Positions 58,102 to 61,508 of a DNA stretch of 64,000 nt are shown piece by piece. Source of the DNA: Fibrobacter sp. UWH4 (GTDB lineage: Bacteria > Fibrobacterota > Fibrobacteria > Fibrobacterales > Fibrobacteraceae); the NCBI RefSeq assembly GCF_900142475.1, contig NZ_FRAY01000007.1, positions 1 to 64,000 on the forward strand, in the 5' to 3' direction. Position 1 is the stretch's first letter. Every line of letters starts with the position of its first letter. The notes beneath the pieces were generated by a model that saw only the letters and a list, made by a program, of their open reading frames with translations, was not told the origin of the DNA and made no database searches. Both the position numbers and the translations under genes were made by a program.

Positions 58102-58109
58102 CAAATATA
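58102..58109 (-). promoter_or_regulatory. possible TAnnTTTG promoter core of pgi
   Basis: TATATTTG on the minus strand matches the Bacteroidota-type -7 element, as at folD (32181-32188). Confidence 0.4.
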
Positions 58110-58110
58110 G

Positions 58111-58145
58111 GAAATTCGGAGTTCGGAATTCGGAATTCAGAATTG
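58111..58145. repeat. dispersed GAATTC-rich repeat
   Basis: Tandem AATTCGGAGTTCGGAATTCG-type sequence in the pgi/hydrolase divergent region; related to 29591-29655 and 54276-54308. Confidence 0.65.
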
Positions 58146-58165
58146 AAAATGCTACATTCAAAAGT

Positions 58166-58729
58166 ATGGATACATCAATTCTTGACAAGGCAATCGTATT
58201 TGCGGTTAAGGCGCACCAGGGAGCAGAACGCAAGGGAAAAGGCTTCCCTTACATCGTTCACCCGATGGAGGCAGTCGCGATCGCAGCCACCATGACGAAC
58301 GACCAGGAACTTTTGGCCGCGGCAGCACTTCACGACACGGTCGAAGACACCGAAATCACCCTGAAGGATGTCGAACGCGAATTCGGCAAGAGGGTGGCAG
58401 AACTTGTTGAAGCAGAATCCGATATCGAATTCGAGGGCAAGAGCCGTCAGGAAAGTTGGAGACTTCGCAAGGAAGAAGCCATTGAGCGATTGTCTTCAGC
58501 TACAAACGAAGTCAAGATTGTAGCACTTTCAGATAAATTAAGCAACATCCGAGCCATCTACCGCGACTACCAGGCAATAGGCGACAAGGTATGGGACTTG
58601 TTCTGCGTCAAGGACAAGGCTTCGCACGAATGGCATTTCCGCGGGCTTGCGCGAGCACTTTCTAGTCTCAAGGGGACATTCGCATACGACGAATTTGCAG
58701 AAACAATCAACAAAGTCTTTGGGAAATAG
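58166..58729 (+). CDS. small HD-domain alarmone hydrolase (SAH/MESH1-like)
   Basis: 187 residues, a single HD domain of the RelA/SpoT hydrolase type, expected to remove the 3'-pyrophosphate from (p)ppGpp or a related product. Metal-binding residues match MESH1: His32 (PYIVHPMEA), His56-Asp57 (ALHDTVEDT) and Asp123 with Asn127 (ALSDKLSN). No synthetase, TGS or ACT domain is attached. The next gene, 7 bases downstream, encodes a separate synthetase-type protein, so together they look like the two catalytic halves of SpoT on separate chains. It could also be the antitoxin of a toxSAS-type module. No strong ribosome site is visible before the ATG; the upstream gap holds a GAATTC-type repeat. Confidence 0.88.
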   Translation: MDTSILDKAIVFAVKAHQGAERKGKGFPYIVHPMEAVAIAATMTNDQELLAAAALHDTVEDTEITLKDVEREFGKRVAELVEAESDIEFEGKSRQESWRLRKEEAIERLSSATNEVKIVALSDKLSNIRAIYRDYQAIGDKVWDLFCVKDKASHEWHFRGLARALSSLKGTFAYDEFAETINKVFGK

Positions 58730-58736
58730 ACACGAC

Positions 58737-59846
58737 ATGGAACAGGTAACCAACAAGGACTACGGCCTGCCCCCCAAGGAAACGCTTATCCTGGAGGAGT
58801 ACCGCGAACAACGCATTGTCTTCGAGAAGCTACTACGCATCGTCAAGCGAATTCTTCGCGAGAGCATCCAAGAAAACAAGATATACATCAACGCCATCGA
58901 AGGGCGCGTCAAGGCAGAAGACAGCCTTGCGGGTAAACTCGAACGTAAGTCGGGCAAGTACAATTCCCTTTCGGACTTAACGGATATTTTGGGTGTCCGC
59001 GTCATCACATTCTACAGCGACGAAGTGGATAAAATTGCAGCCCTTGTCGGACGCACTTTTACTATTGACTGGGAAAACAGTATCGACAAACGCAAGATGC
59101 ACGAAATACACAGTTTCGGCTACAATTCACTACATTACATTTGCAAGCTTCCCAAGGAAAAATACTTTGACCCCAACTACCCCCAACTAAACGAAATCCG
59201 TTTCGAAGTGCAGATGCGAACCGCCCTGCAGCATGTGTGGTCGGTACTCGATCACGATACGGGTTACAAGTCGGGTTTCGAAGTTCCCAGGGAATACCTA
59301 CGTAACCTGAACCGACTTGCAGGAATGCTGGAACTAGTCGACGAACAGTTCTGCCTCATCCGTTCGGGAATCAACGATTACCGTCGTCAGGTTCAGTCCC
59401 TGGTAAGTTCGGGAAGTTTCGACGAGATCGAACTGAATGGAGACTCCTTCAGCAACTATCTGGAATTACGCCCGTTTGATGCACTGAACAAGCGAATCGC
59501 TTCCATCAACCAGGCGGAAATCCACGAAACCTCACTCTCCCGCTTCCTGAGCGTATTTGTCTCCTTCGGATTCAAGACGCTAGGCGACATCGACCGACTC
59601 ATCAAGAGAGATTCCGAAGACGCCTACCAGCTAGCCGCCTTCCAGCTTGCCAACACGGATCTTGACATCATCAACTCGTCTCTCGGCGTCATTTCCCTTT
59701 GCGCCGTCCATGTGCTCAAGCAGGGCGGGGGGATGCTAGAACTGACAAGATTCCTAGAAGACCTCAACGGAGCGTCTGCCAACAACAAGCACCGCGCAGA
59801 AGGGCTCCTCCGTGTCGCACAGAACCTGTCGTTTATGAAGAAATGA
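58737..59846 (+). CDS. RelA/SpoT-type nucleotide pyrophosphokinase with an unknown C-terminal domain
   Basis: 369 residues. Residues about 20-200 are a RelA/SpoT synthetase domain: GRVKAEDSLAGKLERKSGK, DLTDILGVRVITFYSDEV, HSFGYNSLHYICKLP and RFEVQMRTALQHVWSVLDHD match the substrate and catalytic motifs. Residues about 200-369 are a helical region I do not recognise; it contains no TGS, ACT or HD. Small synthetases are normally 200-250 residues, so this is longer. Start at 58737, 7 bases after the hydrolase stop, giving tight coupling. It may make (p)ppGpp, or it may modify tRNA as toxSAS enzymes do. The open frame extends 30 codons into the upstream gene but without support. Confidence 0.88.
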   Translation: MEQVTNKDYGLPPKETLILEEYREQRIVFEKLLRIVKRILRESIQENKIYINAIEGRVKAEDSLAGKLERKSGKYNSLSDLTDILGVRVITFYSDEVDKIAALVGRTFTIDWENSIDKRKMHEIHSFGYNSLHYICKLPKEKYFDPNYPQLNEIRFEVQMRTALQHVWSVLDHDTGYKSGFEVPREYLRNLNRLAGMLELVDEQFCLIRSGINDYRRQVQSLVSSGSFDEIELNGDSFSNYLELRPFDALNKRIASINQAEIHETSLSRFLSVFVSFGFKTLGDIDRLIKRDSEDAYQLAAFQLANTDLDIINSSLGVISLCAVHVLKQGGGMLELTRFLEDLNGASANNKHRAEGLLRVAQNLSFMKK

Positions 59847-59875: not shown

Positions 59876-59908
59876 CAGAAAGTCCCCGGCACGACTGCCG
59901 AGGACTTG
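59876..59908. terminator. bidirectional terminator between the synthetase and Cys-rich protein genes
   Basis: AGTCCCCGGC (59881-59890) with GCCGAGGACT (59897-59906), one mismatch. The minus-strand tail TTTCTGTTTTTAG is T-rich. Confidence 0.8.
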
Positions 59909-59925: not shown

Positions 59926-60585
59926 TTAATTGTGATGGGGACCGTGCTCACCGTGCGGGCCATGACCTTTAGGTCCGTTTTTCATACGCTCCCTAAAGTT
60001 TCTCATTTGCTCCTTGTGAAAGTTGTTGAACTTTTCGAGCTGTTCGGCAGTCAAGATACCGGCAAGGGCCTGCATTCCGTTGATGCGGTGTTCCAGCAGG
60101 GACTTGTCTACATCGAGAACGCGAGCCTTGGCGGCATCGATTCCGGCAGAATCCTTACTTTCGAGAGCCTCGCCCAGAGCCCTTTCGGCATCATGTTTCT
60201 GCTGACGGAGGACCTTGAAAATGGAATCGCCTTTCACGCGGCTAGCCTCGATGGCAGATTTCTGTTCCGGTGTCACCTGCAGCAAGGAATCCATGGCGGC
60301 AAAGTCCATCTTGCCCCTGAATTTCGGACCCTTTTCAAAATCACCGTGCGGGCCCATGTGCTTGTGTTCGCCATTTTCATGCTTGGCGCAGCTCGGGCAG
60401 TGGCAAGGCTGTCCATTCTTTTCGCAAGAGCACGGTAGACCTTGCGAGCATGCGCAAGGACCTCCCTTTTGGCAACAGGTTGCGGTACTAGAGCAGCAAT
60501 TGAAATTGCAGAACCTGCCGGCGAAAAAGCCTAAGGCGAGAGCAAGCACTATAATGCTTGCAATAAAGAGCTTTGATCCTTTCAT
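59926..60585 (-). CDS. Cys-rich membrane-anchored LTxxQ (ZraP/CnrX/Spy-like) protein
   Basis: 219 residues. N-terminal membrane anchor (about 6-23), then 12 cysteines between residues 26 and 66, including three PCxC motifs (PCAC, PCSC, PCHC). A His-rich linker follows (HENGEHKHMGPHG), then a helical hairpin with the LTxxQ signature (TAEQLEKFNNFHKEQ) and a His-rich tail (GHGPHGEHGPHH). The fold is that of periplasmic metal or stress proteins (ZraP, CpxP, Spy, CnrX). The cysteine cluster suggests binding of a thiophilic metal. It is the third gene of an operon after an ECF sigma factor and a membrane anti-sigma, the same set of parts as cnrYXH, so a sensor role is plausible. The gap to the anti-sigma gene is 3 bases. 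Confidence 0.85.
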   Translation of the reverse strand: MKGSKLFIASIIVLALALGFFAGRFCNFNCCSSTATCCQKGGPCACSQGLPCSCEKNGQPCHCPSCAKHENGEHKHMGPHGDFEKGPKFRGKMDFAAMDSLLQVTPEQKSAIEASRVKGDSIFKVLRQQKHDAERALGEALESKDSAGIDAAKARVLDVDKSLLEHRINGMQALAGILTAEQLEKFNNFHKEQMRNFRERMKNGPKGHGPHGEHGPHHN

Positions 60586-60588
60586 GGT

Positions 60589-60948
60589 TTACTCCTTGGT
60601 TAAATAATTAAAGCCCACCGTTTCTTCCAATGTTTCGAACTCGTCGCTGGTGGAATTCCCGAGGTTTTCATACCAGCTCAGGAGTTCGGACGGTGCGGAA
60701 TTGTTGATCGAAACGTATTCGGTAGAAGCGGAATTTTCCTGTTCAATGTCGCTGGTGAAAGACGGCAAAATCGCAGTCAGGCTCACAAGCACAAAACTTG
60801 CGGCCAGCGGAATCGCGCTGTACCAGCTCTTGATAGAGACAACCTTGCCCTTCGCGCTTTCGGCATCAAGTCTTGCGCAGACCTTGCTCCACGAGTCAGC
60901 CCGGGGAGTGAGCCGCTCCATTTTCGAAAAGTCAATTTTTGTAGACAT
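60589..60948 (-). CDS. single-pass membrane anti-sigma factor
   Basis: 119 residues: cytoplasmic N-terminus (1-42, MSTKIDFSKMERLTPRADSW), one membrane segment (about 43-62, WYSAIPLAASFVLVSLTAIL) and a periplasmic acidic part (63-119). There is no HxxxCxxC zinc motif, so it is not a classical ZAS anti-sigma; the short sigma-binding region recalls CnrY-like proteins. The role is assigned mainly from context: it starts 2 bases after the sigma-factor stop and ends 3 bases before the LTxxQ protein gene. AGGAG 7 bases before the ATG lies within the end of the sigma gene. Confidence 0.8.
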   Translation of the reverse strand: MSTKIDFSKMERLTPRADSWSKVCARLDAESAKGKVVSIKSWYSAIPLAASFVLVSLTAILPSFTSDIEQENSASTEYVSINNSAPSELLSWYENLGNSTSDEFETLEETVGFNYLTKE

Positions 60949-60950
60949 GG

Positions 60951-61508
60951 TTAAGCTCCTTTTTTAAAGTTTGTCTTGCGTTCGTTCAGGTAGTTGCGAA
61001 CAAAAGTTCTTGCACGGCTGAGGCGCGCCTTGATGGTTCCTTCGGGCATCTTGTAGATTTCCGCCAGGTCCTTCACGTCTAAATCTTCGGCATCCTTGAG
61101 CCAGAGCATGCTTCGCGTTTCGGCCTGGAGAGCATTCAGTCCCATTTCCAAAAGTTCCGGATCAAAGTTTTCATCGGAACTTTCTTCTTTGCCGAGTGCC
61201 GACTCCACGATCACGTCGAGGTGTTCCTCTTCAAGTTCGCGATGCCGTTTGTCGCCTCGCAACTTCATAAGGCAGGCGTTTACCGTGAGCCTGTAAAGCC
61301 ATGTTGCAATAGCGGACTGTCCGCGAAAGCCCTGGATGGCCTTCGGGACCTGCACAAAAACATCCATCAGGATATCTTCGGCCTCGTCGCGATTTTTCAA
61401 CATCCGGAAGGCGAGATTCAGCACATGTCCGCTGTGGGCCTCCCACAGCATGGCGAGCGCTTCGCGGCTACCTTCCCGCAGATATTGAAATATCACTTTT
61501 TCGTCCAT
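60951..61508 (-). CDS. ECF sigma-70 family RNA polymerase sigma factor
   Basis: 185 residues with region 2 (about 8-85: EALAMLWEAHSGHVLNLAFR, DEAEDILMDVFVQV, GQSAIATWLYRLTVNACL) and region 4 (about 120-175: ALQAETRSMLWLKDAEDLDV, LAEIYKMPEGTIKARLSRAR). Region 3 is absent, as usual for ECF factors. Start chosen at 61508 (MDEKVIF) because AAGG lies 5 bases upstream; an ATG 13 codons earlier has no ribosome site, and the frame is open well into the divergent gene. It heads the sigma/anti-sigma/Cys-rich operon. ECF factors usually activate their own promoter; the 100-bp divergent gap is AT-rich, but I see no certain -35/-10 pair. Confidence 0.95.
   Translation of the reverse strand: MDEKVIFQYLREGSREALAMLWEAHSGHVLNLAFRMLKNRDEAEDILMDVFVQVPKAIQGFRGQSAIATWLYRLTVNACLMKLRGDKRHRELEEEHLDVIVESALGKEESSDENFDPELLEMGLNALQAETRSMLWLKDAEDLDVKDLAEIYKMPEGTIKARLSRARTFVRNYLNERKTNFKKGA

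Follow-up and report, generated by a model that had tools for sequence, protein, structure and literature searches.

The locus examined here raises a simple question: do two neighbouring genes for the making and breaking of alarmones represent the cell's own stringent-response enzyme in two pieces, a toxin with its antidote, or a dedicated signalling pair? The genes lie near one end of the window, by which we mean the whole 64,000-nucleotide stretch of Fibrobacter sp. UWH4 DNA analysed (contig NZ_FRAY01000007.1). Both open reading frames are intact and on the forward strand, the hydrolase gene at 58166-58729 and the synthetase gene at 58737-59846, separated by 7 bp (58730-58736). This spacing, already pointed out in the first-pass annotation, is consistent with co-transcription. 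Since both frames are kept in dozens of genomes, mostly adjoining, their association is not a chance one, and a pseudogene reading is ruled out by the intact frames and the conserved active-site residues. A recent mobile island is not supported either: the locus adjoins pgi in many Fibrobacter genomes, an old chromosomal position common across the genus, and the GC content of the two genes (0.505 and 0.507) is near the window average of 0.527. Short repeats of the type GGAATTCGGAATTC are found in the intergenic stretch upstream of the hydrolase gene (58108-58150), and a scan for promoters at the locus found none. A terminator-like hairpin with a 12-bp stem follows the synthetase gene (59880-59907), its T tail reading on the minus strand, at the end of the opposing gene; such hairpins are no more numerous in the region than expected from shuffled sequence.

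The 187-aa product of 58166-58729 is a predicted alarmone pyrophosphohydrolase of the Mesh1-L type. A profile search matches it to HD_4 (PF13328, E 1e-21), and its closest solved structures, 7qoe, 4yf1 (Lmo0812) and the C. glutamicum-type hydrolase 7qoc, are small alarmone hydrolases or HD-domain proteins. H32, H56, D57 and D123 are all in place, as the first-pass annotation had stated for the MESH1 metal residues, and together with R22, K25, E60, D61 and N127 they are invariant across 34 homologues. The protein is thus a stand-alone HD domain with the full set of metal and nucleotide-site residues that marks Mesh1-L sequences. RelH of Corynebacterium glutamicum (PMC5954133), to which 7qoc is a solved counterpart, falls in the same subgroup according to the accessible part of the RSH survey of Atkinson et al. 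2011 (PMC3153485). The accessible part of the RelH report makes no mention of an adjacent synthetase, unlike the pair in the window.

The 369-aa product of 58737-59846 resembles a RelQ-like small alarmone synthetase carrying a private C-terminal domain. PF04607 (RelA_SpoT) matches residues 56-180 (E 2e-16), and the catalytic-type residues R57, K59, S63, K67, D83, Y129, H133, E157, Q159 and R161 are invariant among 54 homologues. Neither TGS nor ACT was found, in agreement with the earlier reading, and HD is absent too; a SYNTH domain with its catalytic residues and without HD, TGS or ACT places the protein among the small alarmone synthetases. In its AlphaFold model (mean pLDDT 87.8) the top Foldseek match is Bacillus subtilis SAS1/RelQ (5ded, E 6e-10), and the TM-score, normalised to the target, reaches 0.84 against 5dec compared with about 0.40 for CapRel. 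Sequence scores against solved relatives run the same way, at 46-48 bits for RelQ/RelP-type proteins and 19 bits for CapRel. By sequence and by fold, the catalytic domain is therefore nearer RelQ/RelP than CapRel. It shares both fold and catalytic residues with RelQ/SAS1 of B. subtilis; to our knowledge, RelQ has no 144-residue C-terminal domain and no paired hydrolase. PADLOC offers PDC-S33 as a candidate identity, and we rejected it as unspecific: the match to the catalytic domain is weak and is common to all relatives tested.

Beyond the catalytic domain, the model shows by DSSP a long linker helix of 41 residues (185-225; 59289-59411), which leads into a mostly helical C-terminal domain (residues 226-369; 59412-59843). 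The first-pass annotation had described a helical domain of about 170 residues without known relatives. Its helical and unmatched character holds, and the length is revised to about 144 residues plus the helix. Modelled alone, the domain reaches a pLDDT of 93.1 and a pTM of 0.88. A fold search of the PDB and of viral models returned no match below E 1. The domain is likewise without a match in Pfam and NCBIfam, and scans of viral contigs with alignments of the synthetase and of the C-terminal domain found no relatives. Among 168 Fibrobacterota genomes, the domain is confined to synthetase loci. Provisionally, the modelled structure may be regarded as a new fold relative to the PDB and the viral models. 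A docking or regulatory role can be proposed for it, although docking is a guess, since the domain has no known relative.

Does the pair represent SpoT divided into two genes? The arrangement, a hydrolase followed by a synthetase and both intact, is what such a division would look like. However, a full-length RelA/SpoT is present elsewhere in the genome, a 3.7-Mb assembly in 22 contigs scored as 100% complete: contig C3 carries a 715-aa bifunctional Rel with HD, SYNTH, TGS, AH-RIS and ACT domains, which scores 699 bits against a RelA/SpoT family cut-off of 499. Because this Rel is intact, the split-SpoT reading is refuted, and the suggestion that the two genes are the cell's regular (p)ppGpp switch in two parts is not supported. 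Moreover, both products resemble stand-alone families and not halves of the genome's Rel, and the gene order is flipped in relatives; we consider a divided SpoT so improbable that it can be set aside. What survives of the earlier interpretation is the coupling of a stand-alone hydrolase with a stand-alone synthetase. The accessible part of the survey of Atkinson et al. 2011 (PMC3153485) assigns to Fibrobacteres one Rel, two divRel and one Mesh1-L, a set equal to that of the genome examined here. Since divRel and Mesh1-L are counted there, both proteins were known individually; in that part of the survey their adjacency, the C-terminal domain and the link to a partner switch are not described. 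The same genome encodes a third RelA_SpoT-domain protein, of 350 aa and without hydrolase or TGS domain, on the minus strand of contig C2 (L003:1270-2322).

The distribution of the two genes speaks for a functional unit. In 80 genomes of the genus Fibrobacter, a tally that includes some incomplete genomes and one distant, interrupted copy (G133), both genes occur in 49, the hydrolase only in 10 and neither in 21, and a full synthetase is never found without the hydrolase (Fisher p 4e-12, uncorrected for relatedness). The hydrolase comes first in 28 of 29 Fibrobacter loci. The opposite order prevails in loci labelled Bacteroidales (43 of 51), with the hydrolase not adjacent in the other 8. That the genes stay together despite the swapped order argues for a functional pair. 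Five of these eight genomes encode the hydrolase elsewhere; in the remaining three, which are incomplete (L070, L087 and L107), the hydrolase domain was found in Rel only. Thus, unless the missing genes are simply unassembled, the synthetase is not strictly dependent on the hydrolase. Locus architectures were assigned by homology, and several of the Fibrobacter genes carry long antisense frames.

Several variations on the pair were observed. Three Fibrobacter loci (L046, L047 and L048) and three Bacteroidales-labelled ones (L063, L064 and L067) encode the hydrolase as a fusion with an APH-like kinase domain of family TIGR02172, and in most other Bacteroidales loci this kinase is a separate gene directly after the hydrolase. 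Distant synthetases of 336-378 aa without an adjoining hydrolase are present in a Vibrio filamentous phage (L147:6571-7581), a Bacteroides plasmid with phage capsid genes (L148:4989-6062) and a 3.5-kb Klebsiella plasmid (L149:436-1572). Residues 18-291 of the synthetase in the window match PHROG family 9640 (E 4e-64).

What is new here is the genomic context, which appears to tie the synthetase to a partner switch in relatives. The recurring neighbours of these loci are a Cache-sensor SpoIIE phosphatase (often with HAMP), an RsbW-like HATPase (a separate gene or fused to the phosphatase, depending on the locus), an RsbV-like STAS protein and the TIGR02172 APH-like kinase, with an NMT1-type binding protein as an occasional member. 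At least one partner-switch gene lies within 6 kb of the synthetase in each of the 27 Bacteroidales loci whose flanks are complete (STAS in 27, RsbW in 27, SpoIIE in 24), these and the following counts of synthetase and cassette co-occurrence being uncorrected for phylogeny. SpoIIE genes are rare, at 1-3 per genome in the 20 Bacteroidales genomes checked, yet 18 of these genomes have one no farther than about 6 kb from the synthetase. This is far above chance, which we estimate at roughly 1% from the number of genes, the length of the locus and the size of the genome. Even in loci without the hydrolase, a STAS gene adjoins the synthetase with gaps of 9-58 bp (L066, L068, L107 and L113). The STAS proteins retain the phosphorylatable Ser and the kinases their N- and G-boxes; judged by these residues, the switch proteins look functional.

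The linkage recurs in several Fibrobacter relatives. The cassette lies directly 3' of the pair in L043 and L044 and beside it in L065, L042, L074 and G062. No cassette adjoins the pair in the window itself, and none is nearby in 24 of the 29 Fibrobacter loci. The branching of the synthetases provides a clue to the polarity of this difference. In G088, with the order synthetase-hydrolase-APH-RsbW-STAS, the synthetase is the first branch among those of the genus (support 94/97), suggesting that linkage is the old condition and its absence in the window a derived one. A phosphatase directly follows the hydrolase in G078, G123 and G129, where the synthetase is missing. At L042:7063-9438 the SpoIIE phosphatase and its STAS partner are fused in one polypeptide.

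The genome of the window encodes just two SpoIIE proteins. At a separate locus on contig C5 (128.8-131.6 kb) it has an orthologous phosphatase-STAS pair, with a Cache-HAMP-SpoIIE-HATPase protein (129152-131599) and an adjoining STAS gene. Close relatives of this phosphatase (>1000 bits) are found in 31 of the 49 synthetase-positive genomes and in none of the 31 synthetase-negative ones, and in G062 and G082 they adjoin the synthetase. A partner-switch role in trans is thus plausible in this genome, given that relatives of the C5 phosphatase track the synthetase and in two genomes sit beside it. Three genomes have the synthetase without a close relative of this phosphatase (G086, G088 and G121), and one of them, G088, has the adjoining kinase and STAS genes.

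In this context, we put forward that the two genes form a dedicated pair for making and breaking an alarmone beside the housekeeping Rel, and that the synthetase would be the output enzyme of a partner switch comparable to SiaABCD. From gene context and by analogy, we hold this to be somewhat more probable than its negation. In SiaABCD of Pseudomonas aeruginosa, the phosphorylation state of SiaC, which resembles an anti-sigma antagonist, is governed by a PP2C phosphatase and a kinase; in its unphosphorylated form SiaC activates SiaD, a diguanylate cyclase, by binding to its helical stalk (PMC7647112, PMC8457831). The systems have in common a PP2C sensor phosphatase, a kinase, a STAS-like protein and, as output, a synthetase of a nucleotide second messenger with a long helix; the phosphatase of L043 scores against the SiaA model. 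They differ in the output, which here is a predicted alarmone synthetase that has a hydrolase of its own and whose C-terminal domain is unrelated, and in the phosphatase of relatives, which is often fused to the kinase.

By this analogy, a membrane Cache-sensor SpoIIE (PP2C) phosphatase would dephosphorylate the STAS protein and the RsbW-like kinase would rephosphorylate it, with one of the switch proteins binding the C-terminal domain or the linker helix of the synthetase and so setting its activity. The enzyme itself would move pyrophosphate from ATP onto a guanosine nucleotide (less likely an adenosine one), and the adjoining MESH1-like hydrolase would remove the pyrophosphate and reset the signal. 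In the window's lineage, the cassette would act in trans from elsewhere in the genome. The more specific proposal, in which the C-terminal domain is the point where the Cache-SpoIIE/RsbW/STAS switch exerts direct control over a (p)ppGpp-type synthetase, with the private and sometimes APH-fused hydrolase as the reset, seems to us to have an even chance; the product, the physical docking and the direction of control are what we infer, as is the action in trans in the window's species. The linkage could instead reflect co-regulation.

Two other explanations compete with the proposed switch output. The nearby switch might control something else, a sigma factor for example, and be a mere neighbour of an ordinary extra synthetase and hydrolase, proteins whose stand-alone forms are common according to the accessible part of the 2011 survey (PMC3153485). 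The window locus itself consists of nothing more than the pair and an ECF sigma module on the opposite strand, and an ECF sigma gene accompanies the cluster in Fibrobacter, both of which would suit such a neighbour. However, the linkage spans two phyla and differing gene orders, loci without a hydrolase keep STAS beside the synthetase, and we noticed no gene for a sigma factor in those Bacteroidales clusters that were inspected; we regard mere proximity as rather unlikely.

The toxSAS reading would make the synthetase a growth-stopping toxin, either a maker of (p)ppApp or a tRNA pyrophosphokinase, and the hydrolase its enzymatic antitoxin. Such an analogy is possible because FaRel has a known hydrolase antitoxin: this small synthetase is neutralised by ATfaRel, a small alarmone hydrolase of its own operon (PMC11782079), and here too a small synthetase and a small alarmone hydrolase are encoded together. 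That a Fibrobacter synthetase is never without the hydrolase, which in turn survives alone, would be expected of a toxin, and the hydrolase-less distant relatives carried by a phage and by two plasmids, one phage-like and one small, point the same way, as does, for what a match common to all tested relatives is worth, the weak similarity to PDC-S33. In contrast to FaRel/ATfaRel, the window synthetase is nearer RelQ, with CapRel far lower among solved relatives (47 vs 19 bits), no second antitoxin is recognised (neither a pZFD nor a Tis1-like one was noticed next to the synthetase), and the constant associate in relatives is a sensor phosphatase switch. The eight Bacteroidales loci without an adjacent hydrolase, including three incomplete genomes with none except that of Rel, and the old chromosomal site beside pgi in many Fibrobacter genomes also speak against a toxin. 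The resemblance noted in the first-pass annotation thus has a precedent, but that annotation could not take in the switch linkage, which is visible only in relatives. A toxSAS module is unlikely and fits less well than a synthetase controlled by the switch.

Rather than a split SpoT, the locus is best classed as a pair of small alarmone synthetase and hydrolase whose relatives are tied to a partner switch. The known controls on alarmone synthetases are ribosomes, ligands, binding proteins and antitoxins. Our search of the open-access literature found no paper that joins partner switching to an alarmone synthetase. Should the proposed control be true, major fibre-degrading gut bacteria could adjust their alarmone levels to an external signal, perceived by a Cache domain, whether or not amino acids are scarce, and gut Bacteroidales and Fibrobacter would have a second entry to the stringent response that responds to the outside. 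The rule exemplified by SiaABCD, that partner switches drive nucleotide second-messenger enzymes, would then extend from c-di-GMP to alarmones, and a new protein domain would gain a testable role.

The surroundings of the pair show further recurrent features. In the window, a module on the minus strand (59926-61508) comprises the ECF sigma factor (60951-61508), a protein of 119 aa and one that is LTXXQ/Spy-like. In relatives this module is placed at the junction of hydrolase and synthetase (G062), at that of synthetase and phosphatase (L042 and L074), or upstream of the hydrolase (L044 and L045). The module may represent a second output, or no more than a common neighbour. Finally, in some Fibrobacter loci a translational GTPase similar to EF-G and tetracycline-protection proteins begins about 18 bp after the synthetase (L050:3213-5237, also L053 and L060).
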